From the NCBI GenBank assembly GCA_937871295.1, contig CALMRE010000116.1, positions 1-42,313 on the forward strand: a DNA stretch of 42,313 bases, written 5' to 3'. This document shows positions 6,124 through 32,886 of this stretch, piece by piece. Numbering within the stretch: position 1 is the stretch's first letter; each line of letters starts with the position of its first letter. A model generated the notes under the pieces. It did not search any database and had not been told where the DNA came from. It saw only the letters and a list, made by a program, of their open reading frames with translations. This DNA is from an uncultured bacterium (GTDB lineage: Bacteria; UBP6; UBA1177; JAKLFG01). Position numbers and translations under genes: made by a program.

Positions 6124-6129
6124 CCCCAA

Positions 6130-6145
6130 AAAACAGGCCTGTTTT
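6130..6145. terminator. Weak terminator-like palindrome after the first operon
   Basis: AAAACAGGCCTGTTTT is a perfect 16-bp palindrome just after the wbpE-like stop codon. As RNA it can form a 6-bp stem closed by a GGCC loop, ending in a short U run. The stem is AU-rich, so it is at best a weak intrinsic terminator, or a protein-binding palindrome. Confidence 0.3.
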
Positions 6146-6146
6146 C

Positions 6147-6174
6147 TTGTATTTTCAAGGCGTATCGGTATAAT
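6147..6174 (+). promoter_or_regulatory. Sigma-70-type promoter for the polysaccharide operon
   Basis: A perfect -10 TATAAT at 6169-6174 is preceded after 16 nt by TTGTAT at 6147-6152 (TTG of the -35). It lies 37 nt before the ATG of the wza-like gene and after the terminator-like palindrome, so a new transcript probably starts here. Confidence 0.55.
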
Positions 6175-6210
6175 TACCTCGTTTTTTGAAGACAGCGCTT
6201 CGGGTTGAAG

Positions 6211-7251
6211 ATGGAACGGATCGTCAGCATAACGCTTCTTGCGCTCGCCTTTATTATAGGGTGTAGGCACACCGAACACTACGGGAAACAGATGGCGGGC
6301 AAGGAACTCCCCTTCGCCCCTCTTTCGGCCGAGAACGATGTTAAGGAACTGTTAGCCGACGGTGACGAATATCGCATCGGCACCGGCGATGAACTCAAGG
6401 TCGATGTCTACAACATCCCTGAACTCAGTTCCAAATCGATGTCGATCAGTCAGTTCTTCGGGCAGGTAGTGGATGAAAAGGGAGAGATATTGTTTCCCAT
6501 CATCAAGAGCATCAAGGTCGGCGGTCTCACCAAGAAGGAGGCGGCACAGGCGATAGAAGAGCGGCTCAAGGAGTTCGTCAAGAACCCCGACGTTTCTATG
6601 GAGATCGTTAAGTTCCAGAGTAAATTCTATTATATAACAGGCGCCTCAAACAATAATGGCAAATACAACATCACCCCCACCACGACCATCATGGAGGCGC
6701 TTTCTCGTATCACCCCGCTCGCCACTTCAAGTTCTGTGACGATGGCCAATACCATTTACCTCAAGCGCGATGAAAAGGTTATCCCTCTTTCGATAACCGA
6801 GGTCAGTAAGTCGCAGACCGACTATTCCCGGATCCGCATCCATAACGGCGACACCTTCTTCGTTCCTCCCGCATCGGCCGAACGGGTTTACATTGTCGGC
6901 GAGATCGCGCGCCCGGGAGCCTACCAGATAACCAAACCCGATTACACCGTACTCGACCTTATCGCCGAGGCGGGCGGCGTCAACCCGGTGACAGCCGACA
7001 CCACCGCCCTGTATCTCGTCCGGCAGTACGGCGGTAAATTCCAGTACGCGGTGCTCGATTACCACAAAATAATCGGCGGCGATTCCGGTAGCGACCTGCG
7101 CCTCCAGCCGGGCGACCGGCTCGTCGTTTCTCCGACCGGTCTGGCCAGTTACAACCGCATCATCGAACAACTGCTTCCGACCTTCCAGATGATCAACTCC
7201 ATCACCGGCACCATAAAGAATGTGATCGACATCTCCAACGGCGGAAAGTGA
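6211..7251 (+). CDS. wza: Polysaccharide export outer-membrane lipoprotein (Wza family)
   Basis: A 346-residue export protein. The N-terminus is a lipoprotein signal (LALAFIIGC, lipidated Cys18). A Poly_export domain starts at about residue 50 (EYRIGTGDELKVDVYN), followed by two SLBB-type segments (near 140-215 and from VYIVGEIARPGAYQ onward). Wza-family proteins form the outer-membrane channel through which capsule or exopolysaccharide leaves the cell and pair with a Wzc-type inner-membrane partner, here the next gene, 7 nt downstream. Neither candidate start has a strong ribosome site. ATG 6211 is preferred over TTG 6205, which would add only Met-Lys. Confidence 0.88.
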   Translation: MERIVSITLLALAFIIGCRHTEHYGKQMAGKELPFAPLSAENDVKELLADGDEYRIGTGDELKVDVYNIPELSSKSMSISQFFGQVVDEKGEILFPIIKSIKVGGLTKKEAAQAIEERLKEFVKNPDVSMEIVKFQSKFYYITGASNNNGKYNITPTTTIMEALSRITPLATSSSVTMANTIYLKRDEKVIPLSITEVSKSQTDYSRIRIHNGDTFFVPPASAERVYIVGEIARPGAYQITKPDYTVLDLIAEAGGVNPVTADTTALYLVRQYGGKFQYAVLDYHKIIGGDSGSDLRLQPGDRLVVSPTGLASYNRIIEQLLPTFQMINSITGTIKNVIDISNGGK

Positions 7252-7258
7252 GCAGAAG

Positions 7259-9388
7259 ATGACCGACCTCACCGTAAAAGACCTCATTGCCGTCGTACGG
7301 CACGGTACGCGCATGGCGGTCATCGTATTTTCGGTCACTTTCTGCGTCAGTCTTTTCGCGATGTTCCTGTTCGCACCCGAATACGAGGTCTCGACCACGA
7401 TACTCATCGAGCAGGAGGATCCATCGGCGCTCATGTTGCCCAATCCGGCGGCACTGCTCATGGGCGGCTTTCAGGCGGCGCAGAACGAGACCGAGCTCAT
7501 CAAAAGCCGCGTCATCATCGACGCCCTCATCGAGAAATTCAACCTGCAGTTCCCGGTCGAACGGATCAACGACAGCTTTTTCCGTCAGTTCGTGGGGAAA
7601 TTCCGTGGAGAACCCGATTTCATCGGAGCGCCCTATTTCGCCAAGACCCATCCCGGTCTTGCCAACGGGGACGGGACCATAACGGTTACCGCGGCGGGCT
7701 ATCTTATAGAGAACGGTTCGGAAAAGATCGAATGCGCATGGGGCAAACCCTGCTCCTTCAAGGGAGGAGAGATCGTACTGGAGAAGGCGGGCGATATCCC
7801 GTCCGGCGAACACTACGAATACAGTTACCGCAACCTCGTCAGGTCACGCAAGGCGGTCCGTGAATCGTACGAGGCTTTCCCGCTGGGAGAGGACAAGGCC
7901 CCTTCTCTTTTCCGCGTCTCGATGGAAACGACCAACACCCCCTTTGCCGCGCTCTTTCTGAACGAACTGGTCACCGTGTTCGCGGCCAAAAAGGTGCAGT
8001 GGCGTACCGAAACGACCGAGATAACGCGCGGCTTCCTTGAAAAATTGGCCGTCCGCCTCAAGGACGAGCGGGACGAGAAGCTCCGCAAGCTCACCACCTT
8101 CATGTCCAACAGCCGTACCATCCTACCTGACGAACAGGTAAAGACGCTCGTCATGCAGAAACTGGAGCTGGAACAGCAGAAAAAAGAGATAGATATCCGC
8201 CGCAGTCTTATCGGCGAGTTCCGCAAAACCATTGACGAAGGGGGCGCCCGGATGCTCCCCGCGCCGATGCTGGATGACGACAAGGCATTCGGCGAGGTCG
8301 TGGCCACCTACAACACGCTGGTCATGGAGGAGAAAAAGGCGTCTGAACTATATTTCGACTCGCATCCCGACCTCATCATGCTCCGGCAGCAGTTGACCGC
8401 CGCCCGCAAGACCATCGGCACCATGGCCGACGACACCGATTCGAACATCCGGCAGGTCGAATCCTTGCTGAGCGCCAAGATCGGAGCAATAGACGGCGAG
8501 ATGCGGCGCCTGCCGCCGGAATTGAGCGAGCTGGCGGTGCTCAAGGCCGAGGAACAGGCGGTCGAGAAGATATATTGGTTCCTCAACGAGAAACTCTACG
8601 AGAACGAGATAAAGAAGGAATCGATGAAACACGATATCCGTGTCATCGACCGCGCTGACCCCAATGAAGAGAAACTGTTCCCGCGTATCTCCATTTCGAT
8701 GATGCTCGCATTCGCGCTGGCGCTTCTGTTGAGCCTCGGCACCGTGTTCGGTCATTACCTTTTCCGCCGCACCGTACCGTTCGGCGAAGAGGTCTCCCGC
8801 TTTGTCGGGAACACTTACCGTCGTTTCGACCTGCCCTGGGTGGGGACGACACATCCCGCCGACGATCTTGATGCCCGCCTTCTGCGCATCATGGTCTCCT
8901 CGGGGCTGCTCGACAAACGCACCGGCACCATCGCCGTCTGTTCCATTGAACCGGGCGCCGGGAAAACCTTCCTCGCGGGACGGCTGGCGCAAATGCTGAC
9001 CGATCTCGGGTACCGGACCGTGCTCCTGGGCGAGACCGATGGAACGGCGCCGCAGAGTGGCAAGGATCAGCCGGCCCAGCCGGCCCGTCTCCGGCTCGAC
9101 GGCGATTCGGCCGCCGGCACGCTGGTTGCCGCCGACGGTATCGGGCTGAAAAAGATACGGGAGCTGCGTGAGCAGTACGATTTCGTCATCCTCGACACCC
9201 CGGCGATGAACACATCGGTCGAAGCTCTTATCGCCGCCGCAGAGGCCGATCGGACACTCTTTGTCGTCCGGGCCGGGAACACCCCGCGCGCCATCTTCAA
9301 GAAATACTTCAGCATTCTTTCCGAGCGCTCACCGCGGGACGGACAGATCGTCATCGCGGTGAACGATTCGGCATTTATACCGTCGTGA
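7259..9388 (+). CDS. Wzc-like chain-length determinant with degenerate BY-kinase domain
   Basis: A 709-residue polysaccharide co-polymerase. Membrane segment 1 lies near residues 19-40. A long periplasmic Wzz/GNVR region with coiled-coil stretches follows (about 260-450), then membrane segment 2 near 478-500 and a cytoplasmic P-loop domain. That domain has a Walker A (EPGAGKT) and Walker B (FVILDTPA). The Walker A' aspartate motif of tyrosine kinases is altered (VLLGETDGT), and the C-terminus ends without a tyrosine cluster. I therefore read it as a Wzc relative that probably binds nucleotide but may not autophosphorylate. It sits between the Wza export protein and a Wzy-like polymerase, the normal setting for chain-length control and export. 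Confidence 0.85.
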   Translation: MTDLTVKDLIAVVRHGTRMAVIVFSVTFCVSLFAMFLFAPEYEVSTTILIEQEDPSALMLPNPAALLMGGFQAAQNETELIKSRVIIDALIEKFNLQFPVERINDSFFRQFVGKFRGEPDFIGAPYFAKTHPGLANGDGTITVTAAGYLIENGSEKIECAWGKPCSFKGGEIVLEKAGDIPSGEHYEYSYRNLVRSRKAVRESYEAFPLGEDKAPSLFRVSMETTNTPFAALFLNELVTVFAAKKVQWRTETTEITRGFLEKLAVRLKDERDEKLRKLTTFMSNSRTILPDEQVKTLVMQKLELEQQKKEIDIRRSLIGEFRKTIDEGGARMLPAPMLDDDKAFGEVVATYNTLVMEEKKASELYFDSHPDLIMLRQQLTAARKTIGTMADDTDSNIRQVESLLSAKIGAIDGEMRRLPPELSELAVLKAEEQAVEKIYWFLNEKLYENEIKKESMKHDIRVIDRADPNEEKLFPRISISMMLAFALALLLSLGTVFGHYLFRRTVPFGEEVSRFVGNTYRRFDLPWVGTTHPADDLDARLLRIMVSSGLLDKRTGTIAVCSIEPGAGKTFLAGRLAQMLTDLGYRTVLLGETDGTAPQSGKDQPAQPARLRLDGDSAAGTLVAADGIGLKKIRELREQYDFVILDTPAMNTSVEALIAAAEADRTLFVVRAGNTPRAIFKKYFSILSERSPRDGQIVIAVNDSAFIPS

Positions 9389-9413
9389 TCATCGACTAGC
9401 CGGGCGGATACCT

Positions 9414-10730
9414 GTGGGAACCATCCTTTCGATCGCGCTTCTGACCCTCTGCATCGTTGAAGCCTTTCGCGATCTAAAACGAAGCCTCTCCTTCTTTCTG
9501 CTGGCGCTCCTATTCGCCCCCTACATCATTATCGGATCGCTCTACATCCGGATAGAACTGCCTCTGACGCCCATCTATCTGGGGATACTCCTCGCGCGCC
9601 GCGAGTTCAGCGTGATACGGATCCCGTCCATTGCCTGGCCGCTGATCCTGCTGTGGGGATATACCCTCGCACTCACACTGTTCTCCGCTATTGTCGGGAC
9701 CGCGGTCTCTCCCTCATGGTTCAATGTGTACGCCTATATCAAGCCGGTATTCCTGATCCTGCTGTTCGCCAATACGGATTTCTCCGAATCCGATCTTGCG
9801 CGTCTTCTGCGCTGGTTCGCAGCGAGCGCCATCCCGCTCGCTCTGCTGGCGGCCGGGCAAACCTTCGGCGTACAGGCAGCGACCGATATCACCATGAATG
9901 CCTACATGTCGCCGGGTCGGCTGGTCGTCGAACGGCTGGTCAACGAGATCGGATTCATTCTGCGCGCGGTCAGCGTGTTCGAATCGCCGTCCTATGCGGC
10001 CACCTATTTTCTGGCGACCCTTGCCACCGCGGTCTACCTGCTGTTCGAGCTGCGCGGTCAACAGGCGGCGAAACGGGCATTCCTGCTGCCGCTGATCGCT
10101 CTTTTTGCATCCTTCCTCGGCGGCGTGGTGACCCTTTCGGCCACCTTCGTCGCCGGTATCGGACTCATTCTTTTCATGCTTTTCCTGCGACTCGAATGGC
10201 GCAACAAGGTCCGCGCCGTGGCGATATCGGCCGCCTTCGGCGCCATCATCATCGGGTACCTGATGTTCCTCGGCAAGGACGAGGAATATGCCTCGATCGC
10301 GAATAACATCACCTATCAGGCCCGGCGCGTGGTGACCCTTGAACTCTTCGAGACCCGTTATGCCGGAAATACCGGCTATCTTAACAAAACGATGACCGCC
10401 ATAGGCGACAGTCCGCTCATCGGCTACGGTTGGATGCGCAAACCGGGCATCTTCATCGGCGATTCGATGTATGTGGTGCTGCTCTATCAGAGTGGCATCA
10501 TCGGGCTGGCCCTTTTTCTGTTCTGGCTGCTTCAGGCATACCGCATGGTCGCAGCAACGCGACCTCTACGCGAGATACTGGTGTTCTGGCTCTTCGTCAT
10601 GCTCATCTCCGGGATGGGCAGCCCATCCTTCTTCATCCCCCGCCTCAATGACTGGTGGTGGGCGCTCTGCGGCATCGGAGCGTCACTTTCCGCCTCTTCC
10701 GTACTCAACGACCAGAGAAACCTCCCATGA
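9414..10730 (+). CDS. O-antigen polymerase/ligase-like membrane protein (Wzy-like)
   Basis: A 438-residue polytopic membrane protein with about ten to twelve hydrophobic segments and a longer soluble loop around residues 280-350 (ending near IGYGWMRKPGIFIGD). This loop and the IG(Y/H)G motif near it are typical of the O-antigen ligase/polymerase superfamily. In a Wza/Wzc/Wzx locus such a protein usually polymerises repeat units at the periplasmic face. The GTG start lies 25 nt after the wzc-like stop, and its stop overlaps the next gene by ATGA. Sequence is poorly conserved in this family, so Wzy versus ligase cannot be decided. Confidence 0.75.
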   Translation: MGTILSIALLTLCIVEAFRDLKRSLSFFLLALLFAPYIIIGSLYIRIELPLTPIYLGILLARREFSVIRIPSIAWPLILLWGYTLALTLFSAIVGTAVSPSWFNVYAYIKPVFLILLFANTDFSESDLARLLRWFAASAIPLALLAAGQTFGVQAATDITMNAYMSPGRLVVERLVNEIGFILRAVSVFESPSYAATYFLATLATAVYLLFELRGQQAAKRAFLLPLIALFASFLGGVVTLSATFVAGIGLILFMLFLRLEWRNKVRAVAISAAFGAIIIGYLMFLGKDEEYASIANNITYQARRVVTLELFETRYAGNTGYLNKTMTAIGDSPLIGYGWMRKPGIFIGDSMYVVLLYQSGIIGLALFLFWLLQAYRMVAATRPLREILVFWLFVMLISGMGSPSFFIPRLNDWWWALCGIGASLSASSVLNDQRNLP

Positions 10731-11950
10731 AGATACTCTATATCACCTCCAGCCTCCCGATAGGCACGCAGGAAACCTTTATCGTGCCGGAGATAACGGC
10801 TCTTGTGGCGGCCGGACACGATATCACCGTCATTCCGGTCCACCCGCGCGGTGGCTTTATCCACGACGATGCCCGCCCGTTGCTCACCCGATCGCTGATC
10901 CTGCCGATCCTGTCGCCGCGGTTGCTGGGAAGCATCATCTTCCTGCTGCGCCATCCGAAGATATCGCTCCGCGCGCTCTGTGCGCTTCTTACTCTCAACT
11001 TGCTCCATGCGCTGAAGAACAAGGCGGCCTTCTTCAAGGCGCTCTACCTTGCGCGGACCATCGACCTGCGTTCGTTCGACCACATCCACGCCCATTGGGC
11101 GGCCGCCTCATCGTCGCTCGCTATGGCTCTGCACCATCTAAGCGGCGTACCGTGGAGTTTCACTGCTCACCGCTGGGATCTGGTCGACAACAATCTGCTG
11201 GCCCGGAAAACGGCATCGGCATCATTTGTGCGGCTCATCTCGCAGAACAGTCTGGAGCTCGTGCGGACGCATCTCGCCGAACCGCCGATGGAAAAGATAC
11301 ATATCATCCCCATGGGGGTCGCCATCCCCGACGCCCCAATGAGCTCTGAAAAGAACGAGCGCACCGCCCCGCTCACCATGATCTGTCCGGCCAATCTTCT
11401 TCCGGTCAAAGGTCATCGATACCTCATAGAGGCGATCGCCCTGCTGAAAAAGAGCGGCCTGTCGGTACGGCTCATCGTTGCGGGATGCGGGCCTCTGGAA
11501 AAAGAACTCCGGCAACAGGTCGCCGCCGAGACACTCGGGGACCGGATCGAGTTCGCCGGCCGACTCGCCCATGGAAAGCTTCTGGGACTCTACCGCGATC
11601 GCACGGTCGATGCCGTGGTCCTGCCGAGCGTTGACCTCGGCAACGGCGTACGCGAAGGGATCCCGGTATCGCTCATCGAAGCAATGGCCCACGGTCTGCC
11701 GGTCATCTCCACGCAGACCGGCGGCATGCCCGAACTTCTGGGCGACGGCGCGGGACTCATGGTCCCCGAAAAAGACGCATCTGCGCTGGCCGCGGCCATC
11801 GACCGGCTTTCCCGCGATGCGGCATTCCGGCGGACACTGGCCGAAAAGGGTCGTGCCCGTGCCGTGGAGCGTTTCTCCATAGTTTCCGTCACGGCACAAC
11901 TGGAACGACTGTTCGTCGACCATAAAAACCCTCATCGGGGGATCATCTGA
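10727..11950 (+). CDS. Glycosyltransferase family 4 (GT-B fold)
   Basis: A 407-residue GT4 enzyme. The N-terminal Rossmann domain starts MKILYITSSLPIGTQETFIV, a pattern seen in WcaL/EpsD-type transferases. The C-terminal domain has PVKGHRYLIEAI, LIVAGCGPLEKEL and the E-x7-E nucleotide-sugar motif EGIPVSLIE followed by AMAHGLPVISTQTGGMPE. It should transfer a sugar to the growing lipid-linked repeat unit at the inner-membrane cytoplasmic face; donor and acceptor are unknown. The ATG overlaps the upstream stop by ATGA; the downstream gene starts within its stop (TGATG). An in-frame extension back to 10655 lies inside the previous gene and is rejected. Confidence 0.85.
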   Translation: MKILYITSSLPIGTQETFIVPEITALVAAGHDITVIPVHPRGGFIHDDARPLLTRSLILPILSPRLLGSIIFLLRHPKISLRALCALLTLNLLHALKNKAAFFKALYLARTIDLRSFDHIHAHWAAASSSLAMALHHLSGVPWSFTAHRWDLVDNNLLARKTASASFVRLISQNSLELVRTHLAEPPMEKIHIIPMGVAIPDAPMSSEKNERTAPLTMICPANLLPVKGHRYLIEAIALLKKSGLSVRLIVAGCGPLEKELRQQVAAETLGDRIEFAGRLAHGKLLGLYRDRTVDAVVLPSVDLGNGVREGIPVSLIEAMAHGLPVISTQTGGMPELLGDGAGLMVPEKDASALAAAIDRLSRDAAFRRTLAEKGRARAVERFSIVSVTAQLERLFVDHKNPHRGII

Positions 11951-13089
11951 TGGACCGGATACCGGGACTTCTGCGCCGGAGCGTATCGTTTCTGCGGGAA
12001 TGGTCCCGCTTTCCGGCGAATTTGCGGCGGCTGTACGCGTTCCTGACCGATCGCCGTACCGCATCATACCTTACCGACAAGGCCCTGATGAAGCGCAAAT
12101 TCAGGATATGGATGGACAATCTTATCTGGCTTCTGCGACATCGCGAAGTGAACGAATTCTATTACCTGTACCAGTTCGACAGCCGCGAGCCCAGAGATCT
12201 GTCGACCTATATATCCTACGAGGATTTCCGAAAACTCCGCGACCGGATAAATTTCAACCGTCACCTGGTCGCCGGACGCGATTATTCAATCCTTCTCCGG
12301 GACAAGTTCGTCTTCAACAAATACATGGAAAGCCTTCAACTGCCGGTCCCCCCGACCGTGGCACTCATCGAACAGGGTTGCATCCGCTGGGCGGGTGCCA
12401 GAGACCTCGCGAGCCTCGACTCCCTGTACGATGCGTCCCGCGCCGATATTTCCGCCTACTGCAAATATGTGTACGGCGAATGCGGCGAAAAGATATACCG
12501 GCTGGTCAAACGGAAGGGACAGGTCCTGCTGGATGATCGCGCGGTTGGCAAAGAAGAGCTTGCCGCAACGCTGAAGGGAACATTTTTCGTTCAGCAGGAG
12601 GTCCGTCAGCATCCCGATCTGGACGAATTCTACCCGCTGACCACCAATACCCTCCGCCTCTACACGGTCATGACGAAAAAAGGGCCGGAACTCTTCTACG
12701 GCATCATGCGGTTCGGCGCGAACGGCAACCGCGTCGACAACTGGGCCATCGGCGGGATCATCATCAAGCTCGATCTCGCATCAGGAGAACTTCGTCCCGA
12801 AGGCTATTTCAAGCCGGAGTACGGCGGCAGGGTCACCGCCCATCCCCACACCGGGCGCTCCTTTGCCGGATATCGCATCCCCTTCTTCGCCGAAGCGGCC
12901 GCTCTGGTGATGGAGACGCACCGTTATTTCTACGGCATCCGCCACATCGGGTGGGATGTCGCGATAACCGCGACCGGTCCGGTCATCATCGAGGGGAACG
13001 ACAACTGGGAGATATCGGTCATGCAGGGACTCGACCGGCGCGGATGGAAACAGTGGATGTACGAGAACTCCCGCCCCGAACCGCTTTAG
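11950..13089 (+). CDS. Sugar-transfer-associated ATP-grasp protein
   Basis: A 379-residue ATP-grasp protein of the type found next to sugar-transfer genes. The N-terminal 100 residues are basic and helical. The ATP-binding region follows DYSILLRDKFVFNKYMES, and the C-terminal IGWDVAITATGPVIIEGND near 335-353 carries the metal-binding Glu and Asn. ATP-grasp enzymes join a carboxylate to an amine through an acyl phosphate, so it may add an amino-acid-like group to the polysaccharide. It is translationally coupled to the GT4 gene (TGATG) and its stop overlaps that of the convergent capA-like gene. The acceptor is unknown. A second, unrelated-looking ATP-grasp gene is at 16824. Confidence 0.78.
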   Translation: MDRIPGLLRRSVSFLREWSRFPANLRRLYAFLTDRRTASYLTDKALMKRKFRIWMDNLIWLLRHREVNEFYYLYQFDSREPRDLSTYISYEDFRKLRDRINFNRHLVAGRDYSILLRDKFVFNKYMESLQLPVPPTVALIEQGCIRWAGARDLASLDSLYDASRADISAYCKYVYGECGEKIYRLVKRKGQVLLDDRAVGKEELAATLKGTFFVQQEVRQHPDLDEFYPLTTNTLRLYTVMTKKGPELFYGIMRFGANGNRVDNWAIGGIIIKLDLASGELRPEGYFKPEYGGRVTAHPHTGRSFAGYRIPFFAEAAALVMETHRYFYGIRHIGWDVAITATGPVIIEGNDNWEISVMQGLDRRGWKQWMYENSRPEPL

Positions 13090-14231
13090 GCCCGGACCCT
13101 CAGCAGGCCCAGTTTACGCAGAACAAGATATTTCAGCGCCGCGCAGAGCACCGGACGGGTGTCGGGCGTGCGGAACAGCGTCCAGAGCGTTTTAAGATGC
13201 TGCGATGAAAGATAGCGCCTCAGCGACCGTTGTCCCGACGCCGCCGTTGTGGGACCGGCAGTTCCCGCCCCTTCCCGATGCCGCCGGTTGTCGAAAAGGG
13301 TCCTGTGGGCATCGGCAAGCCACGCCACGCGCGGATCGGCCACATGGGGGAGCGTTAAGCGGCTGAAAAGTTCGTCGGTCGCCTCACCGCAGGAGACCGA
13401 TCCGGATTCCCGGTCGACCCGCAACGGGACGAGCGACCAGACGACCCCGCTCCCCGACAACTCAAGAACGACCAACGACCCCTTGTCGGTATCGTCCCGT
13501 TTACGGTGCGGCGGGATATCGAACATGAAATTCCCCAGAGAATAGAACACCGGGCGCCCATCGACCACTTCATAGCCTTGGTAGACATGGGAATGGTGCG
13601 CCACCACCGCGTCCACCGGCAATGCGGCGAACCGGCGAAGCAAGTCCCGTTTGGCGGGCATCGGGATACGCGTGTATTCCTCGCCGCCGTGATAGTTGAT
13701 CACAATGCGGTCGGCCTTGCCGACATCCCGGAGATACGCGATCCGTTCGCGCAGGGCTCCGATAGACCGAAAGACCGCGGTACCGGCCCGTTGTTTTCCG
13801 GCGGCGGGACTCAGACCATCGGTGACCGAAAGGAGCGCCACACGCAGCCCCTCTTTTTCCACCACCACAGTATCGAACCCGTTGTCGCCAAGCCGCCCCG
13901 CACCGAAATGAAGAACGCCGGCGGCCTGTATGTTTCGTACCGTATCGGCATATCCTTCCTCTCCGCAGTCGAACAGGTGGTTGTTGCCGAGATTGAACAC
14001 CGTGATGCCGCGCGCCGCCAGATAGGCGACCGACGCTGGCGCGCTGACCACCTCGAAACCGTAATCGGTCGACGCGCGAACGGCGGTCGCCGGTCCCTCG
14101 AAGTTGGCTACCACCCGGTCGCAGCCGCTCAGAATATCGAGAAGTTCCTCCGAGAACACCTCCTCATTGCGCGCCATACGCTCGCCGAACCGGCCGGTAG
14201 CGCTGAGATCGCCGGTAAAGGCTATCCTCAT
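13086..14231 (-). CDS. CapA-family protein (poly-gamma-glutamate/capsule metallophosphatase-like)
   Basis: A 381-residue CapA-domain protein. Motifs in order: FTGDLS at the N-terminus, NFEGP, FNLGNNHLFD, YHGGEEY, AHHSHVYQG and FYSLGNFMFD, all typical of the CapA/PgsA metallophosphoesterase-like fold. It has no signal peptide and carries a C-terminal basic tail (about residues 310-381) beyond the core domain. In poly-gamma-glutamate systems CapA takes part in polymer export or anchoring; in polysaccharide loci its role is less clear. It lies leftward, starts within the stop codon of the Wzx-like gene (ATGA) and its stop overlaps that of the rightward ATP-grasp gene by 4 bp. Its presence with two ATP-grasp genes points to an amino-acid-containing surface polymer. 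Confidence 0.85.
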   Translation of the reverse strand: MRIAFTGDLSATGRFGERMARNEEVFSEELLDILSGCDRVVANFEGPATAVRASTDYGFEVVSAPASVAYLAARGITVFNLGNNHLFDCGEEGYADTVRNIQAAGVLHFGAGRLGDNGFDTVVVEKEGLRVALLSVTDGLSPAAGKQRAGTAVFRSIGALRERIAYLRDVGKADRIVINYHGGEEYTRIPMPAKRDLLRRFAALPVDAVVAHHSHVYQGYEVVDGRPVFYSLGNFMFDIPPHRKRDDTDKGSLVVLELSGSGVVWSLVPLRVDRESGSVSCGEATDELFSRLTLPHVADPRVAWLADAHRTLFDNRRHREGAGTAGPTTAASGQRSLRRYLSSQHLKTLWTLFRTPDTRPVLCAALKYLVLRKLGLLRVRA

Positions 14232-15478
14232 GCCGCCTCCGGCGCTTCGGCGGCCTTCAGACGACGATAGGCCGCAAAACAGAGTGCCGCCATAACGATA
14301 CGCGTGATCGACACCGTCACCGCGGCTCCGTAATGCTGGAAGAACACTATCCCGCCGCAGAGCAGGACCAGCCCGCCCAGCGAAGAATACATGATGATGC
14401 GCATATACAGTTTATCCTGTTTATGTACCAGCAGATAGTTGGAACCGTACGCCCCCATCACCCCTATGGTCAGCGGACTGACCGCGAGGAGCCGCAGGAT
14501 CAGCGCGGTATCGCCGAAGGCATCGGTGAAAAGTATCTTCACCGCGATATCGGCCAGCAGCAGAAAAGCGACCGTCATCAGCAAACCGGGCAAGAGCAGA
14601 TACTTCTTCATGGTCTGGAAAGCGTGGCGGTTGCGGTTCATATAGGGATAAATGGTCCGCGCGATGATGTACATGAACGCGTTCCCCACCTCGATGAGCT
14701 TTGCTCCGGCGGTGTAGTAGCCGACGGCGGTATTCGACGCAAGTATGCCCAACAGGAAGGTCGAAGAATTGTGATACAGCGAAGGGGTGATATTGGCGAT
14801 GAAGATATTCCATCCGTCGACGAACAGATGCCGGACCATCGCAACGGGCGGAACAAAGAAACGAATGGAAAAATAACGGTTGACCACATACAGCGAGACC
14901 AGACCGACCGAAACGAACCCGATCCCGTTCACTAAAGGAACCAGCATGACATCCTCGGGACCGCGTACCAGCAGGAAGACCAGGCAGGTGAATATCAGCT
15001 TCGCCGAAATGTTGAAATAGGCGATGAACTTCATCCGCTCCATTCCCTGAAAGAACCAGACCGGGATGAGAACATCACCCATGACCAGTCCGAAGGAAAA
15101 GAGATGGACCATCCAATAGTCGCGGAAAAGAGGGAAAACGGCGATGGTCGACAGCAATATCAAAAAACAGACGGCTGCCAACAGGAGCTTCACCGTCATG
15201 ACCGACAGGAATATCTCGTTGATCTTCTTGGGATCGTCACGATTGAGCGATATCTCCCGCGTCGCCGACAAAGTGAATCCATATTGGGTGATCAGGATGA
15301 AATATTGCGCGAAGGACTGCGCGAACGAAACGATGCCGAAATGTTCGACCCCGAGGACCCGCACCAGATACGGCAGGGTGATGAGCGGAAGGATGTAATC
15401 GAAGCCCTTGAGCGAGGCCAGCGAAAGAAAATTACCCCAAAGGGTCTTTTTATCAGCGGAGGAAACGGCCGTACTCAT
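14228..15478 (-). CDS. wzx: Wzx-type polysaccharide flippase
   Basis: A 416-residue protein of the oligosaccharide flippase (MOP/Wzx) family with 12 or more hydrophobic segments. Typical family features are the N-terminal LASLKGFDYILPLITLPYL, VRVLGVEHFGIVSFAQSFAQ and the following YGFTLSATREIS. It should move lipid-linked repeat units across the inner membrane. I chose ATG 15478; AAGGA lies about 14 nt upstream, a long spacing. An 11-codon extension to TTG 15511 has no ribosome site. First gene of a two-gene leftward unit with capA. Confidence 0.88.
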   Translation of the reverse strand: MSTAVSSADKKTLWGNFLSLASLKGFDYILPLITLPYLVRVLGVEHFGIVSFAQSFAQYFILITQYGFTLSATREISLNRDDPKKINEIFLSVMTVKLLLAAVCFLILLSTIAVFPLFRDYWMVHLFSFGLVMGDVLIPVWFFQGMERMKFIAYFNISAKLIFTCLVFLLVRGPEDVMLVPLVNGIGFVSVGLVSLYVVNRYFSIRFFVPPVAMVRHLFVDGWNIFIANITPSLYHNSSTFLLGILASNTAVGYYTAGAKLIEVGNAFMYIIARTIYPYMNRNRHAFQTMKKYLLLPGLLMTVAFLLLADIAVKILFTDAFGDTALILRLLAVSPLTIGVMGAYGSNYLLVHKQDKLYMRIIMYSSLGGLVLLCGGIVFFQHYGAAVTVSITRIVMAALCFAAYRRLKAAEAPEAA

Positions 15479-15511
15479 GGGAACCGTCGGTATCCTTTGG
15501 AAAACACTCAA

Positions 15512-15635
15512 GGCAGAGCGAAACTATCAGATACTCACGGCAAGTCAAGCAAAAAAATCTTTACTTCCCCCCGATTTCCATGAATAATCGGCCGTTCAAC
15601 GCGTCTCGAAAGGACCGCTGTCACGGGGAGGGCAT
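15512..15635. promoter_or_regulatory. Divergent intergenic region between wzx and the AlaDH-like gene
   Basis: A weak leftward promoter can be drawn: TTGACT read from plus 15543-15548, 16-nt spacer, then TAGTTT. A CCGATT/AATCGG inverted repeat (15571-15576 and 15586-15591, 9-nt loop) lies in the middle. GGAG at 15627-15630 is the ribosome site of the rightward gene. No clear rightward promoter is seen. Confidence 0.3.
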
Positions 15636-16802
15636 ATGATCATCGGCGTGCTTAAGGAAATCAAGAAGGACGAGAACCGCATCGCCCTGGTCCCTGCACA
15701 GGCGAAAACCCTCGTCGAACGCGGGCACACCGTCCATATCCAGACCGGCGCCGGGAACAATTCCGGGTATTCCGACGAAGACTACCGTGCCGCCGGCGCC
15801 ATTATTTCCGATAAAAAGGCCCTTCTTGCTAATTCATCCCTCCTCCTGAAGATAAAAGAACCGATAGAGTCGGAGATCGGCGATTACGGCCCTGACCAGA
15901 CCCTCTTCACCTATCTCCATTTCGACGGCAACACGCCGCGCGCCATGATAGATCGCCTCATCGAGAGCGGATTCCTCGGGATCGCCTACGAATGGGTCGA
16001 AGAGAAAGGGCATCATCTCCTGCTTGAACCGATGAGTCGCCTGACGGGCTATTTGTTCGCCTTAAAGGCGGTCGAATTATGCACACGCTATAAAGGCATC
16101 ATCTGCGGCCGGCATGAAAAACTCCTCCCCGGCGCGAAGGTGCTCCTCATCGGCATCGGGACCATCGGCTCAACCGCATTGAAATACTTTCTGGACATCA
16201 ACGCCGACATTACCATCGTGGACAAGCATCCGGAAACGCTTAACGATCGCATCAACAAGCGTTTCGACATGACCGGCGATCATATCGCGGCCCGCGGCAT
16301 AAAGACGATCCGCTTCGACACTGAACACCCCTATGCCATCCGCGATATCCTCGCTCCCCTCATGCCGACCTTCGACATCGTCATCAACAGCGCGTTACGC
16401 CGCGCCGATCTGCCCCCCGAACGGCTTGACCACCTGATAACCGCCGATATGATAAAAACCATGCGCCCCGACAGCGTGGTCTGCGACGCGACCGCCAATA
16501 TCCGCGATCTCATCCAGACCGCCTACCCCTTCGAGGAACTCGATCATTTCTACCGCGAATACGGCGTCATCCACTACAACAACGACCATATTCCTTCGAC
16601 GGTCGGCCGCACCGCCACCGATATCCTGACCGCCGCGACATTTCCCTTTGTGCGGGAGATGGCGGAACTCGGCGTACACGAGGCGATCCGGCGGAACGCC
16701 GCCCTGCGCGCCGGGGTATCCTGCTACCGCGGACGGATAACCCATGACTACACCGCCCGGCAAAAAGGCTATGACCCCCTACCGATACTACAGCTTCTCT
16801 AA
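15636..16802 (+). CDS. Alanine dehydrogenase/transhydrogenase-family protein
   Basis: A 388-residue protein of the AlaDH/PNT family. The N-terminal MIIGVLKEIKKDENRIALVP supplies Arg15; KIKEP gives Lys74 and TYLHFDG gives His95, equivalent to the pyruvate-binding Arg15, Lys75 and His96 of alanine dehydrogenases. The Rossmann motif is VLLIGIGTIGSTAL. The C-terminal substrate loop differs: where alanine dehydrogenases have DQGG and NMPGAVPRTST, this one reads CDATANIRD and NNDHIPSTVGRTAT. It may thus act on another 2-oxo acid or imine. Its place inside a surface-polysaccharide locus, 21 nt before an ATP-grasp ligase, suggests it makes an amino acid or opine used to decorate the polymer. Plain alanine dehydrogenase remains possible. 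Confidence 0.75.
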   Translation: MIIGVLKEIKKDENRIALVPAQAKTLVERGHTVHIQTGAGNNSGYSDEDYRAAGAIISDKKALLANSSLLLKIKEPIESEIGDYGPDQTLFTYLHFDGNTPRAMIDRLIESGFLGIAYEWVEEKGHHLLLEPMSRLTGYLFALKAVELCTRYKGIICGRHEKLLPGAKVLLIGIGTIGSTALKYFLDINADITIVDKHPETLNDRINKRFDMTGDHIAARGIKTIRFDTEHPYAIRDILAPLMPTFDIVINSALRRADLPPERLDHLITADMIKTMRPDSVVCDATANIRDLIQTAYPFEELDHFYREYGVIHYNNDHIPSTVGRTATDILTAATFPFVREMAELGVHEAIRRNAALRAGVSCYRGRITHDYTARQKGYDPLPILQLL

Positions 16803-16823
16803 GTCTCTACGGGAGTATCCCTG

Positions 16824-17942
16824 ATGAAGAACCCCCATCTTTTCAAACTCAAGCAACATCTCGCGCAATATCCCATCGTCGAATGGTATCGCCGCCGGCA
16901 CCTCGACAGGAAAACATTCAAGCCCGAGATGCTCGACGGCGCCGATACGGTCGCCATCGACTGGCCCGTCGACCTCCCCAAGCCGCGCATCGGACTGGTC
17001 AAGGACTGCGGCAAGATGCTCTTCACGCAACCCTACGCCTATTGGCCGCGCTATGAACGGTTCCTGAAGAACAACGGCTTCGCCTACGAATTCTACGATA
17101 TCCGGCGATCCGACTGGATGGCGCAGGCAGACCGTTTCGATGTGGTCGTGTGGCGCACCGAAAGCGACCCGGCGAGCCAGTACGAGGCGGAAAACAAGAT
17201 ACGCATCCTCGAAATGATGGGAAAGAAGTGTCTCCCCTCCTTCGATCTGGTCTGGTCGTACGAAGACAAGATCCGGCAGGCACACATGTTCGCACTACAC
17301 GGCGTCCCGACCGTCCCGACCTTCATATCCTACGACCGCGACGAGGCACTCACCTATGTCGCCTCAGCGCCGCTGCCGATAGTCTCAAAGCTCGCCACCG
17401 GTTCCGGCTCGATGGGCGTTGAACTGTTCCGGCATCGCGACGCGGCCGAACGGTTCGTGCGCCGCGTCTTCGCGCCGGGGAATCCCACCTACTGGACCTA
17501 CCTGCGCCAGAAGGACTATGTCTATTTTCAGGAATTCTTCGAGGACGCCGCCTTTGACCTGCGCGTCATCGTCATCGGCGACCGGATCTTCGGTTACTAC
17601 CGGATGCGTCCCGAGGACGATTTCCGCGCGTCGGGTGCCGGCAAGGTCGTCAAAAAAGAGATCCCCGAAGAGGCCTTGCACATCGCCGTACGCACGGCCC
17701 GCGCCATGGGCGCCCCGATGATCGCCGTCGACATGATACATTCCCCCCGGCGCGGCGGTTTTTTTGTCATCGAGGCATCGATCTCTTTCCAGATAGACAC
17801 TCATGAACAGTTGAAACTCGGCGATACCCCCGGCTACTACCGGCATGAGGAGGGTCGATTCACCTTCGTTCCGGGCCGTTTCTGGGTGCAGGAACTGGCG
17901 CTCCGCCGTTTCCTTGAGACCACTTATCTCCACCGCGGATGA
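16824..17942 (+). CDS. RimK-like ATP-grasp ligase
   Basis: A 372-residue ATP-grasp protein. SYEDKIRQAHMFALHGVPTVPTF near 150-172 and PIVSKLATGSGSMGVEL near 185-200 form the ATP-grasp core; YVYFQEFFEDAAFDLRVIVIGD and MIAVDMI near 299-305 supply metal and nucleotide residues. The last metal-binding segment reads VIEASIS where RimK-type enzymes usually have a Glu-x-Asn, so the Asn is missing. GGGAG lies 8 nt before the ATG. It follows the AlaDH-like gene and overlaps the next glycosyltransferase (ATGA), so it probably attaches an amino acid or similar group to a sugar acid or peptide of the surface polymer. Substrates cannot be read from the sequence. Confidence 0.75.
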   Translation: MKNPHLFKLKQHLAQYPIVEWYRRRHLDRKTFKPEMLDGADTVAIDWPVDLPKPRIGLVKDCGKMLFTQPYAYWPRYERFLKNNGFAYEFYDIRRSDWMAQADRFDVVVWRTESDPASQYEAENKIRILEMMGKKCLPSFDLVWSYEDKIRQAHMFALHGVPTVPTFISYDRDEALTYVASAPLPIVSKLATGSGSMGVELFRHRDAAERFVRRVFAPGNPTYWTYLRQKDYVYFQEFFEDAAFDLRVIVIGDRIFGYYRMRPEDDFRASGAGKVVKKEIPEEALHIAVRTARAMGAPMIAVDMIHSPRRGGFFVIEASISFQIDTHEQLKLGDTPGYYRHEEGRFTFVPGRFWVQELALRRFLETTYLHRG

Positions 17943-19039
17943 GGACCGTCGCCTGCATACTGCCCGATCTCCGCGGCGGCGGCGCCGAACGGGTCATCGT
18001 CCGCCTGCTTAACGCTCTTGACCGGAAACGATTCCGGCCGGTCCTCATACTCATCGAAAAGAACGGTGATTATCTTGACGAGGTGGCATCCGATGTCGAG
18101 ATAGTCGATCTGAAACGGTCGCGCATGCTCACCGCCCTTCCCGCTCTTTTTTCCGTCATGCGCCGCCTCCGACCCGATATCGTGCTGGCCACCCACGGCT
18201 ATGTCAGCCTCCCGCTCGCCCTGCTGATGCCTTTTCTGCCGCGCGGCATCCGTTTCATAGCCCGCGAGGCGAACACCCCCTCACGCTGGAGCGCCCTGCA
18301 ACCTCCGTTGCGCCGCCGGATATTCTCCTTTCTTTACCGTCACCTTTTCCGCCGCTTTAACGGCATCGTCGCCCAATCCGACACGATGCGCCGCGATATG
18401 CTGTCGTTCTGCCGCCTGCCGGAGGAACGGATAACGGTCATCCATAATCCGGTCGATATCGCCGCCATCGACCGCCAGTCGGCCCTGCCGTCGGCGGTGG
18501 CCCTGCCTGAAGGGGTGAAACGGATCATCGCGGTCGGGCGACTTCACCCGCAGAAACAGTATCCCATGCTCATTGAGGCCTTTTCCCGGCTCAACGATAT
18601 CCCGGCTCACTTGACGATACTCGGTGACGGCCCCGACAAGGAGACCATACTGGAGAACATACTGGAACGGCGACTTGCGGCGCGCGTCCATCTCGCCGGG
18701 TTCATCAAGAACCCCTACGCCGTTATGCGGCGCGCCGACCTGCTGGTCCTCCCCTCCGCCTTTGAGGGCTTTCCCAACGCCCTTATCGAGGCGAACGCCT
18801 GCGGGATACCGGCGGTCGTCTTTCACGATATCGGCGGCGCTTCGGAGATAATCATCGAGGGCGTCAACGGCCATCTGGCCCAACAGGGCTCGATCGACGA
18901 TCTTGCCGCAAAGATGCGGGCGGCGCTGATCGGCGACTGGGACCGGGAACGGATACGGGCCTCCGCCTATGATCGCTTCGGTCTACCCCGTATCGTGGCA
19001 CAATGGGAGGATTATTTTTCCTCCGGCGGTACCGATTAA
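17939..19039 (+). CDS. Glycosyltransferase family 4 (GT-B fold)
   Basis: A 366-residue GT4 enzyme. The N-terminus ILPDLRGGGAERVIVRLLNAL is the acceptor-side glycine-rich loop common to many EPS transferases. The C-terminal domain has IAVGRLHPQKQYPMLIEAF, LTILGDGPDKE, LPSAFEGFPNALIEA with the E-x7-E pair, and GGASEII. It should add a hexose or modified sugar to the lipid-linked repeat unit in the cytoplasm. The start overlaps the ATP-grasp stop by ATGA; the stop is followed by a 70-nt gap with a candidate promoter for the next gene. Confidence 0.87.
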   Translation: MRTVACILPDLRGGGAERVIVRLLNALDRKRFRPVLILIEKNGDYLDEVASDVEIVDLKRSRMLTALPALFSVMRRLRPDIVLATHGYVSLPLALLMPFLPRGIRFIAREANTPSRWSALQPPLRRRIFSFLYRHLFRRFNGIVAQSDTMRRDMLSFCRLPEERITVIHNPVDIAAIDRQSALPSAVALPEGVKRIIAVGRLHPQKQYPMLIEAFSRLNDIPAHLTILGDGPDKETILENILERRLAARVHLAGFIKNPYAVMRRADLLVLPSAFEGFPNALIEANACGIPAVVFHDIGGASEIIIEGVNGHLAQQGSIDDLAAKMRAALIGDWDRERIRASAYDRFGLPRIVAQWEDYFSSGGTD

Positions 19040-19041
19040 AC

Positions 19042-19070
19042 TTGTAATTTCCTCTCTAAAAGCATACAGT
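19042..19070 (+). promoter_or_regulatory. Candidate promoter before the GT2 gene
   Basis: TTGTAA at 19042-19047 and TACAGT at 19065-19070, 17 nt apart, each match four of six consensus bases. They lie about 40 nt before the GT2 start, which has TAGGA as ribosome site. The whole 70-nt gap is more AT-rich than its flanks. Confidence 0.35.
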
Positions 19071-19109
19071 ACCGCACGCCTTTTGTGGCGACCGGTGGAA
19101 CGGTAGGAC

Positions 19110-20156
19110 ATGAAAGTATCGATACTTATTCCGACTTTTCAAGAAGGCAGATACATTACCCGCTGCCTTAACAGCATCATCACCAACGAATATGATTTTT
19201 TCGGCACCGATTCCGAGATACTGGTCATAGACGGTCATTCGACCGACGGGACCCGCGACATCGTGGCCGGGTTCATCGAGCGCTACCCCTTCGTCAAGAT
19301 GATCGACAATCCCGATATCGTGCAGGTGGTGGGCCTCAATGTCGGGCTCAAGCTGGCGACCGGCGACATTATCATCCGCTGTGACGCTCATTCCGAATAT
19401 CCGCGCAATTATGTGAGCGAACTGGTCGCATGGCACGCCAAGGGGCTTGCGGCCAATATCGGCGGCTGCTGGGTCACCCTGCCGGGCGACGACAGCATCC
19501 GGGCGCAGGCCATCGCCGAAGTGATGCGTCATCCGGTCGGCGTCGGGCTCACCTACCGCACCGCGCCGGAGGGAAAGGAACGGTTCGTCGACACCGTCCC
19601 GTTCGGTTCCTGGAAACGGGAGACCATCGAATCGGTCGGTCCGTTCGACGAGGAATTCATCCGGGCGCAGGACCTTGAACACAACATGCGGCTCCGTGCA
19701 CGCGGCGAAAAGATACTGATGCTGCCGTGGCTCCGCATCCGCTACTATGCCCGCGAATCGTACGACAAGGCGGCGAGTATGTTCTACCAGTACGGGTACT
19801 GGAAGAACAAGGTGAACCGCAAATTCGGCACCATCTGCAGTCTGCGCCAACTCATTCCACCGCTGTTCGTTCTCGGACTCATCACGCTGGCGATAGGCGC
19901 CTGCTGTTCTCCCGTGATCACGGGCCTGCTCATCGCCTACCTCGCCCTTTATATCGTCCCGATACTCGCCTTTTCGTTGCTCATCATCTTCCAACAACCG
20001 CCCGAACGGCGATCGTTCGGTTTCTTCCTGCTGATCGCCATAGCCTTCTTCATGACCCATTTCAGCTACGGCTTCGGGTACATCATGGGTTTCATCAATA
20101 TCATCCTATTGCGCCGCAAGGATCTCGCCAAGAATCTCACGAATCACACCCGCTGA
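19110..20156 (+). CDS. Glycosyltransferase family 2, ExoA-like, with C-terminal membrane segments
   Basis: A 348-residue GT-A enzyme. The N-terminal SILIPTFQEGRYITRCLNSI and LVIDGHSTDGT are the nucleotide-binding start of GT2 enzymes. The usual DxD is DAH in IIRCDAHSEYP, as in the ExoA group of succinoglycan-type transferases. FGSWKRETIESVGPFDE and the QDLEHNMRLR acceptor motif follow. After residue 245 there are two to three hydrophobic segments that anchor the protein in the inner membrane. It acts in assembly of the polysaccharide repeat unit; sugar unknown. It stands between a GT4 gene and ugd with small gaps on both sides. Confidence 0.87.
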   Translation: MKVSILIPTFQEGRYITRCLNSIITNEYDFFGTDSEILVIDGHSTDGTRDIVAGFIERYPFVKMIDNPDIVQVVGLNVGLKLATGDIIIRCDAHSEYPRNYVSELVAWHAKGLAANIGGCWVTLPGDDSIRAQAIAEVMRHPVGVGLTYRTAPEGKERFVDTVPFGSWKRETIESVGPFDEEFIRAQDLEHNMRLRARGEKILMLPWLRIRYYARESYDKAASMFYQYGYWKNKVNRKFGTICSLRQLIPPLFVLGLITLAIGACCSPVITGLLIAYLALYIVPILAFSLLIIFQQPPERRSFGFFLLIAIAFFMTHFSYGFGYIMGFINIILLRRKDLAKNLTNHTR

Positions 20157-20171
20157 CCGGCCCCTCTTTTC

Positions 20172-20199
20172 TTGACCTAATCCCTCAAATCGTTAAGGT
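20172..20199 (+). promoter_or_regulatory. Weak candidate promoter for ugd
   Basis: TTGACC at 20172-20177 matches the -35 consensus in five positions; the best -10 is TAAGGT at 20194-20199 (16-nt spacer, three of six). It lies 36 nt before the ugd ATG. The -35 is good, the -10 is poor. Confidence 0.3.
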
Positions 20200-20235
20200 A
20201 GGGCGACACTGTTCGCGCGGCAAATGGAGGCACGC

Positions 20236-21561
20236 ATGAAGATCGCTGTTGTCGGTTCCGGCTATGTGGGGCTCGTTTCGGGGACCTGTCTGGCCGATTT
20301 CGGCCTTGATGTCATCTGCATGGATATCGATGAGAAGAAGATAGCGGCGCTGAAAAGCGGGAAGATGCCCATTTACGAACCGGGTCTCGATACCCTCGTG
20401 GAGCGCAATGTGGCCAACAAGCGGCTATCGTTCACCACCGACATGAAATATACGGTCGAGACCGCCACCGTCATCTTCATCGCCGTCGGCACGCCGCCCA
20501 AGGACGACGGTTCGGCCGACCTGCAGTATGTTCTCGCGGTGGCCGAAGAGATCGGTCGCTACATGAACAAGTACACCGTTATCGTCGACAAGTCGACCGT
20601 CCCGGTGGGGACCGGCCAGCTGGTCAAGAAGACCATCGCCGACGAGTTGAAGAAGCGCGGCGTTTCGTTTGAATTCGATGTCGTCTCGAACCCCGAGTTC
20701 CTGCGCGAAGGACACGCCATTCACGATTTCACCCATCCCGACCGAGTCGTCATCGGCACCGAGGGGAAAAAGGCCGAGGAGGCGATGCAGAAGGTCTACC
20801 GTGTCCTCTACCTCAACCAGACGCCGTTCGTCTTCACCACGATAGAGACCGCCGAAATGATAAAGTACGCCTCGAACGCCTTCCTCGCGGCGAAGATATC
20901 GTTCATCAACGAGATGGCGCTCCTCTCCGAACGGGTCGGCGCCAATGTGCAGGATATCGCCAAGGCGATGGGAATGGACGGCCGCATATCGCCGAAGTTC
21001 CTCCACGCCGGTCCCGGCTACGGCGGCAGCTGTTTCCCGAAGGACACCAAGGCGATCTACGACATCGGCAAGAAACACGGCGTCGAGCTGATGGTGGTCA
21101 AGGCGGCCATCGAGGCGAACGAGAAACAGAAACAGAAGATGGTCGAAAAGATAACGACCGCGATGGGTCCGGTGAAGGGCAAGACCTTCGCCGTCCTCGG
21201 ACTCACCTTCAAGCCCGACACCGACGATATGCGCGACGCCCCGGCGCTGACCATCGTCCCGGCGCTCGTGAAGGCGGGCGCGACGATACGGACCTTCTGC
21301 CCGCAGGGCTTCCACGAGGCGAAGTGGCGGCTGGCAGACCATGAGAAGGCGATCACCTACTGCGCCGACAGTTACGAGGCGGTCACGGGGGCCGACGCGG
21401 TGGTCATCCTTACCGAATGGAACCAGTTCCGCGGCATGGATCTCGCCCAGATACGGTCGCTGATGAAGGACAAGTTCTTCTTCGATCTGCGCAATGTCTA
21501 TTCCCGCGACCCGCAGGTCCGCGAACTGTTCACTTACTCCGGCGTCGGCCTGCCTCACTGA
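20236..21561 (+). CDS. ugd: UDP-glucose 6-dehydrogenase
   Basis: A 441-residue UDP-sugar dehydrogenase, full length for the bacterial Ugd family. It oxidises UDP-glucose twice with NAD+ to UDP-glucuronate. Visible are the Rossmann motif VVGSGYVGLVSG, the VGTPPKDDGSADL loop, SNPEFLREGHA, the EMIKYASNAFLAAKISFINE helix with the catalytic Lys, and the catalytic Cys266 in GPGYGGSCFPKD. The ATG at 20236 has GGAGG 5 nt upstream; an in-frame ATG at 20224 overlaps that site and is rejected. UDP-glucuronate can feed the polysaccharide and possibly a uronic-acid glycolipid. Its stop overlaps the convergent hflX stop by 7 bp. A UDP-GlcNAc or UDP-ManNAc dehydrogenase is less likely. Confidence 0.88.
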   Translation: MKIAVVGSGYVGLVSGTCLADFGLDVICMDIDEKKIAALKSGKMPIYEPGLDTLVERNVANKRLSFTTDMKYTVETATVIFIAVGTPPKDDGSADLQYVLAVAEEIGRYMNKYTVIVDKSTVPVGTGQLVKKTIADELKKRGVSFEFDVVSNPEFLREGHAIHDFTHPDRVVIGTEGKKAEEAMQKVYRVLYLNQTPFVFTTIETAEMIKYASNAFLAAKISFINEMALLSERVGANVQDIAKAMGMDGRISPKFLHAGPGYGGSCFPKDTKAIYDIGKKHGVELMVVKAAIEANEKQKQKMVEKITTAMGPVKGKTFAVLGLTFKPDTDDMRDAPALTIVPALVKAGATIRTFCPQGFHEAKWRLADHEKAITYCADSYEAVTGADAVVILTEWNQFRGMDLAQIRSLMKDKFFFDLRNVYSRDPQVRELFTYSGVGLPH

Positions 21562-22991: not shown

Positions 22992-23418
22992 CGATGAGGA
23001 CCGCTATCTCGGCAAGCACCCGCGCCTTTTCGGTCGAAACGCCCCCCGCGATGAGTCGCCGCTCCGCCTCGGCGACGGTCGCCGGATCGGGCGCGGGCCG
23101 CGGCGGACGGGCCGGCGGACGCCGTTTCTTCTTCTCGAAATGCCGCGGCTCGACCGACAGCGCGATCCCGGCCACCCGCGCCTCGGGGAGCAACCGCGCC
23201 ATCTTCTCGACGATGAGCGGCAGGAGCGGTTCGTACTGGGAACGGACCATCGAATTGGGTACCGCGACCTTGAGCAGCCGCTTACGCCGGTCGAATTCGT
23301 ACGGGAACAGCATATTCCGGCTCTTTTTGCCCACGATGGCGGTCCACTGAAAAAGAACGGCCGTCAGCAGTTCACGGTCGGCGGGGATATCTGAAATTAT
23401 CTTAGTTATTGCCGGCAT
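22966..23418 (-). CDS. DUF721/DciA-like protein
   Basis: A 150-residue protein whose first 100 residues match the DUF721/DciA pattern: [18 protein letters not shown], then [19 protein letters not shown] and a following amphipathic helix. In many bacteria without DnaC, DciA loads the replicative helicase DnaB. The C-terminal third is a proline/arginine-rich linker ([15 protein letters not shown]) and a short helical tail. The ATG lies inside the end of fabZ (17-bp overlap) and its stop lies inside hflX. The family match is moderate; a role in DNA replication is inferred from the family only. Confidence 0.65.
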
Positions 23419-31603: not shown

Positions 31604-31651
31604 CGCCTTGTGATTGACTGTCGCCGACCATCCGTCGGCATCGGAGGAACC

Positions 31652-32875: not shown

Positions 32876-32886
32876 GGAGGCGGACG

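Follow-up and report, generated by a model that had tools for sequence, protein, structure and literature searches.

The window analysed here is the whole of contig CALMRE010000116.1 (G000:C116; 42,313 nucleotides), part of a 3.45 Mb draft genome of an uncultured bacterium from a little-sampled phylum. The genes at 11950-17942 sit within a Wzx/Wzy-type polysaccharide locus (Table 1); Pfam profile searches revealed the co-occurrence of Wza, Wzc, Wzx, and glycosyltransferases expected of such loci. The initial annotation, made from the sequence alone, had singled out two ATP-grasp ligases, CapA, and a member of the alanine dehydrogenase (AlaDH) family in this interval, and all four were recovered with Pfam. 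Their reported setting among glycosyltransferases, Wzx, and Wzy was borne out by GT4 and GT2 glycosyltransferases, Wzx, Wza, and Wzc, and the Wzy-like match was weak. The Wzx gene is placed between the CapA and AlaDH-like genes. The subject of this study is the AlaDH-like gene (15636-16802) and the neighboring RimK-like ATP-grasp gene (16824-17942), a putative opine synthase/ligase pair.

The dehydrogenase scored 206.3 bits with the AlaDH profile TIGR00518, far under the equivalog cutoff of 391.85. A tree and a motif table were built from an alignment of 41 proteins, including 20 AlaDH, 14 proteins related to N(5)-(carboxyethyl)ornithine synthase (CEOS-type), and five proteins of the kind found in the window. 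These five, referred to as the DHIPS clade, grouped together with a support of 100/100; the clade was sister to AlaDH (98/91) and apart from the CEOS-type clade. The catalytic Asp270, found in 20/20 of the AlaDH sampled, was present in 0/5 DHIPS proteins, which carry Asn or Cys instead (Asn288 in the window enzyme). An altered substrate loop had been noticed at the outset and was confirmed: the window enzyme has NNDHIPSTV where AlaDH has xV[AP]NMPG, and the clade-wide form is xxDHIP[SA]. A DHxP loop occurred in 5/5 DHIPS proteins, 13/14 CEOS-type proteins, and yeast saccharopine dehydrogenase, and in 0/20 AlaDH. Retained in all five DHIPS proteins were Arg15, Lys74 (74/75), His95 (95/96), and Glu119 of AlaDH.

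AlaDH activity is abolished upon loss of His96 and Asp270 (PMC4691113, PMC11101664). The AlphaFold2 (AF2) model of the dehydrogenase (predicted local distance difference test, pLDDT, 87.5) had AlaDH from M. tuberculosis (Ald, 2vhx) as its closest fold, with a template modelling (TM) score of 0.83-0.87, as expected for an AlaDH-derived protein. The window enzyme also carries insertions that AlaDH lacks. Given the TIGR00518 cutoff, the loss of Asp270, and the changed loop, an ordinary AlaDH identity was rejected; judged by its sequence, the protein is not an alanine dehydrogenase. Membership of CEOS was rejected likewise, since the CEOS-type clade is separate in the tree and the DHIPS proteins group with AlaDH.

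Saccharopine dehydrogenase and CEOS are secondary-amine-forming enzymes. The loop D317-S321 of the window enzyme conforms to the DH-[LI]-P-S pattern of LYS1-type saccharopine dehydrogenases, and its aspartate corresponds to Asp319 in the SIDHLPS loop of the yeast enzyme (3ugk, PDB numbering), an equivalence that was checked against the PDB sequence. Yeast LYS1 is a distant member of the superfamily and stands on a very long branch of the tree, too long for assignment to a clade; the N-terminal half of its alignment row is provisional, and a profile search recovered its N-terminal part only.

The ATP-grasp protein scored 92.0 bits with NCBIfam TIGR00768, below the RimK subfamily cutoff of 143.4. 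The residues K149, K189, R247, D303, and E317, which serve ATP and metal binding or catalysis, were unchanged across 20 ATP-grasp homologues. The closest PDB folds to its AF2 model (pLDDT 84.5) were ArgX, LysX, and RimK, with TM scores to the target of ≤0.79. Fold and invariant catalytic residues are shared with these ligases, whereas the identity amounts to ~20-23% and the glycan-locus setting differs. In the reactions of ArgX, LysX, and RimK, a free amino acid is coupled through its amine to an acceptor carboxylate, a chemistry in keeping with an amide to a uronic acid. Several other RimK-like ATP-grasps of the lineage found in the window (34-36%) occurred in non-capsule settings, sometimes two per locus (L086, L092, and L093; G278, G141). 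Separately, a CapA-like gene followed by a RimK-like ATP-grasp gene was seen as a recurring pair in polysaccharide loci of unrelated genomes (L057, 179-2321; L096, 4910-6901).

For comparison, each family was sampled with a single genome or a few, and plasmids were included in the survey. In a genome of the same family as the window (G004/RA.bin151), the whole locus is collinear, with 75.8% DNA identity over 5009-21822. In another family of the order (G022), the AlaDH-like and ATP-grasp genes overlap and lie in a different polysaccharide locus. The gene arrangement is therefore neither a product of chance nor an assembly artefact. Three genomes of the order have the AlaDH-like gene, and in each of them it lies ≤22 bp from the ATP-grasp gene or overlaps it; an AlaDH-family gene is missing from nearly all of the order's remaining genomes.

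A genome of the same genus (G001) was compared with the window by blastn. The identity was 79% over 5296-11808 and 89.5% over 17946-23400, and no DNA homology was found over 11809-17945. In G001, the replacement block encodes Wzx (44% to that of the window), a protein of the octopine/nopaline dehydrogenase family (PF02317, 79.2 bits, cutoff 30), and a RimK-like ATP-grasp, the genes of the latter two overlapping. Because the gap is filled by a PF02317 gene and a RimK-like ATP-grasp gene, the block exchange thus appears to have retained a functional pair, swapping the dehydrogenase for one of another Pfam family that shares no family match with it. ATPgrasp_ST and CapA were absent from the gene content of the G001 block. 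For this reason the two lie outside the conserved core of dehydrogenase and RimK-like ligase. A reading of the four genes as one obligate set was rejected, and their acting in a single pathway is not supported.

On an E. coli plasmid (NZ_AP027746.1, L059), an ATP-grasp gene overlaps a gene annotated as 'N(5)-(carboxyethyl)ornithine synthase', followed by genes for a flippase, glycosyltransferases, EpsG, an epimerase, and a nucleotide-sugar dehydrogenase. Among 5,426 complete E. coli genomes, two carry this block, in both cases on a plasmid. Its ATP-grasp is 48% identical to that of G001; overall, G001, G022, and E. coli have ATP-grasps that resemble one another at 48-57%, with partners of the octopine dehydrogenase, DHIPS, and CEOS-type, respectively. 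DHIPS enzymes, in turn, are paired with two ATP-grasp lineages that are ~25% alike. Three enzyme families predicted to make opines were hence found beside related ATP-grasp ligases, and the activity common to the three dehydrogenase families is, so far as known, opine formation. The ATP-grasp family was present in 18 of the genomes surveyed, 4 in the window's order and 14 outside; within the order, an opine-type enzyme was adjacent in 4/4 genomes. Every locus with full context contained a UDP-glucose dehydrogenase or nucleotide-sugar dehydrogenase.

No such ATP-grasp adjoined the CEOS-type genes of 16 genomes or the octopine dehydrogenase homologues examined (G018/G019, Serratia). In G018 and G019 (L098, L099), octopine dehydrogenase family genes (28% to that of G001) lie beside an apparent sugar/choline-type nucleotidyltransferase gene, as judged by eye; a route to N-carboxyethyl-ethanolamine phosphate, as in the Proteus R-Cet-EtnP antigen, is possible there.

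With a probability of about 0.6, we propose that the AlaDH-like/RimK-like pair makes an opine-type amino acid and attaches it to the polymer. The initial annotation had suggested an opine-like amino acid formed by the dehydrogenase and then joined by an ATP-grasp; this part gained support from the enzyme swapping beside the ligase, the loop resembling that of saccharopine dehydrogenase, and the loss of Asp270. From gene content, conservation, motif changes, and the cassette swap, we infer the following substrates, products, and linkage. With NAD(P)H as reductant, the AlaDH-like enzyme would join a 2-oxo acid to an amino acid through the amine of the latter, which takes the place of ammonia; the product would be an N-(1-carboxyalkyl) amino acid, that is, an opine. 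The 2-oxo acid is probably pyruvate, bound by the kept Arg15/Lys74/His95. The RimK/LysX/ArgX-like ATP-grasp would then link the opine via an acyl phosphate, as an amide, to one of the sugars in the repeat unit. The most likely site is the carboxyl of glucuronic acid supplied through the UDP-glucose dehydrogenase of the locus; an opine-acylated amino sugar is the alternative. The modified unit would be exported by the Wzx of the cassette, and ATPgrasp_ST and CapA probably add another, separate modification. The 11.8-17.9 kb block is best read as an 'opine cassette' that can be exchanged within a Wzx/Wzy polysaccharide locus. A broader generalization, to which we give slightly less than even odds, would be a modular opine-polysaccharide system in which an ATP-grasp works with an interchangeable synthase of at least three families (octopine dehydrogenase, CEOS-type, and AlaDH-derived DHIPS), exchanged as cassettes between near-identical loci.

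Several observations weigh against the proposed opine formation and attachment. Overall, the dehydrogenase is nearer to AlaDH (~36% identity) than to CEOS and CEOS-type proteins (~16-18%). CEOS-type proteins and saccharopine dehydrogenase retain Asp at the Asp270 position, so that its loss is no general mark of opine enzymes, and lactococcal-type CEOS carries PNVPS instead of DHxP. CEOS-type genes were mostly located outside polysaccharide loci. In the 14 genomes outside the window's order, no opine-enzyme homologue was present in the DNA fetched around the ATP-grasp gene, which indicates a ligase family broader than opines. Finally, two of the five DHIPS members (L045 and L046, on plasmids of Mesorhizobium and Methylobacterium) lie in uptake/catabolic loci, so the DHIPS enzyme also occurs outside polysaccharide loci. 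Conservation of the AlaDH-like gene beside unrelated metabolic genes had been named at the outset as an argument against the polysaccharide role; it was found for these two members, and the other three, all of the window's order, pair with an ATP-grasp.

Both plasmid loci encode peptide-type ABC permeases, FAD oxidoreductases, and MmgE/PrpD, and one of them M19 dipeptidases. The MmgE/PrpD family includes iminodisuccinate epimerase. From their gene content, these loci look like systems that import and degrade an amino-acid derivative; they are candidate opine-type catabolic loci, and an opine substrate would be compatible with the genes present. No DHIPS clade member beyond the three of the order was found in 386 genomes (E≤1e-70), and none among viral contigs, where the phage matches listed were at AlaDH-like identity (32-34%).

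The same plasmid loci, with their permeases, oxidoreductases, and MmgE/PrpD, would suit an oxidative or central-metabolic dehydrogenase, active in alanine supply or opine breakdown, whose position in the polysaccharide locus is incidental. We consider this improbable in view of the close spacing to the ATP-grasp gene in each of the order's three genomes that have the pair, the occupation of the G001 slot by another opine-type family, and the near-absence of AlaDH-family genes from the rest of the order, so that the gene is not a housekeeping one. An ordinary amino-acid dehydrogenase of altered specificity, acting on ammonia and an unusual 2-oxo acid and followed by attachment of a plain amino acid by the ATP-grasp, comes nearest to the wording of the initial annotation; it is less far-fetched and still unlikely. 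AlaDH is the closest relative by tree and structure, with Arg15, Lys74, and His95 kept, and plain amides between amino acids and uronic acids are common (PMC10609480). However, the Asp270 that AlaDH requires is gone in 5/5 members, the loop is like that of secondary-amine-forming enzymes, and the slot in the sister loci is held by octopine dehydrogenase and CEOS-type proteins, which belong to families known for opines and not known for amination with ammonia.

A variant of our proposal, overlapping with it in confidence, concerns the linkage: the opine may be attached via its own carboxyl to an amino sugar instead of to the carboxyl of glucuronic acid. The genes for a DegT aminotransferase and a hexapeptide acyltransferase (4451-6123) suggest that the polymer probably contains an amino sugar, P. 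alcalifaciens O35, with its alanopine on Qui4N, provides a precedent (PMC10609480), and octopine dehydrogenase products are without a free alpha-amine. Nevertheless, the nearest folds ArgX, LysX, and RimK activate an acceptor carboxylate and draw the amine from a free amino acid, and a UDP-glucose or nucleotide-sugar dehydrogenase accompanies every locus whose full context is available; we regard the variant as possible but doubtful.

Under the opine cassette reading, the predicted product is of a known kind, because opine-bearing O-antigens are on record: in Providencia rustigianii O14, N-eps-[(S)-1-carboxyethyl]-L-Lys is amide-linked to GalA, and P. alcalifaciens O35 carries the alanopine mentioned above (PMC10609480). 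Like the predicted end product, these are N-carboxyalkyl amino acids in amide linkage to a surface polysaccharide. They are known as chemical structures, whereas the enzyme described here comes from another, uncharacterised clade. In the open literature searched, no opine synthase or ligase gene is assigned to these antigens and no gene pair for them was found; genetic work in subscription journals may exist. Measured against the open papers, the enzyme clade and the cassette swap are new. CEOS and its relatives belong to the same superfamily, and the relatives have the DHxP loop in common with the DHIPS enzymes; the one in E. coli is encoded next to a ligase of the ATP-grasp family described above, and its polysaccharide locus includes uronate genes. 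In contrast to the window enzyme, they form a separate clade and keep the Asp270 equivalent. If the proposal is true, an ATP-grasp together with any opine-synthase family within a Wzx/Wzy locus would be a recognisable gene signature, the DHIPS proteins would be a new clade of AlaDH-fold enzymes forming secondary amines, and functional replacement across enzyme families would be a route to surface-antigen variation.

Table 1. Features of the polysaccharide locus in the window, with the profile or comparison on which each assignment is based
Feature	Position	Strand	Basis
Hexapeptide acyltransferase	4451-5023	+	PF00132
DegT sugar aminotransferase	5020-6123	+	PF01041
Wza	6205-7251	+	PF02563
Wzc, export/co-polymerase	7259-9388	+	PF02706/PF13807
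Wzy-like polymerase	9414-10730	+	PF04932, weak, 24.7 bits (cutoff 31.7)
GT4 glycosyltransferase	10727-11950	+	PF00534
Exchanged block, lacking DNA homology with the G001 locus	11809-17945		blastn; flanks 79% and 89.5% identical
ATPgrasp_ST, sugar-transfer-associated ATP-grasp, accessory	11950-13089	+	PF14397, 149.8 bits (cutoff 31.4)
CapA/PGA_cap protein, accessory	13086-14231	-	PF09587, 167.5 bits (cutoff 27)
Wzx flippase of the cassette	14228-15511	-	PF01943, 195.6 bits
AlaDH-fold dehydrogenase, DHIPS clade, proposed opine-type (N-carboxyalkyl amino acid) synthase	15636-16802	+	AlaDh_PNT_N, 118 bits (cutoff 30.4); AlaDh_PNT_C, 99 bits (cutoff 23)
Codon 288 (Asn), position of the AlaDH catalytic Asp270	16497-16499	+	41-protein alignment
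Codons 317-321, DHIPS loop replacing AlaDH ANMPG	16584-16598	+	Asp317 aligned with yeast saccharopine dehydrogenase Asp319
RimK/LysX/ArgX-like ATP-grasp ligase, proposed opine-glycan amide ligase	16824-17942	+	PF08443 (RimK), 51.3 bits (cutoff 21)
GT4 glycosyltransferase, conserved flank	17939-19039	+	94% in G001
GT2 glycosyltransferase, conserved flank	19110-20156	+	90% in G001
UDP-glucose 6-dehydrogenase-like, predicted to supply UDP-glucuronic acid	20224-21561	+	PF03721/PF00984/PF03720; TuaD-like, 540 bits

Immediately upstream of the polysaccharide locus, three consecutive genes (1122-4437) look like a bacterial sphingolipid operon: one is serine-palmitoyltransferase-like (597 bits with NF047600, cutoff 640), one is GNAT-like, and one encodes an HpnA-type short-chain dehydrogenase/reductase. 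They are adjoined by a gene for a citryl-CoA lyase-type protein (332-1111; NF004869, 233 bits, cutoff 212). Further downstream in the window, 31610-33423 holds a candidate AbiL-like two-gene defence system (PADLOC AbiLi, 252 bits; AbiLii, 46 bits).

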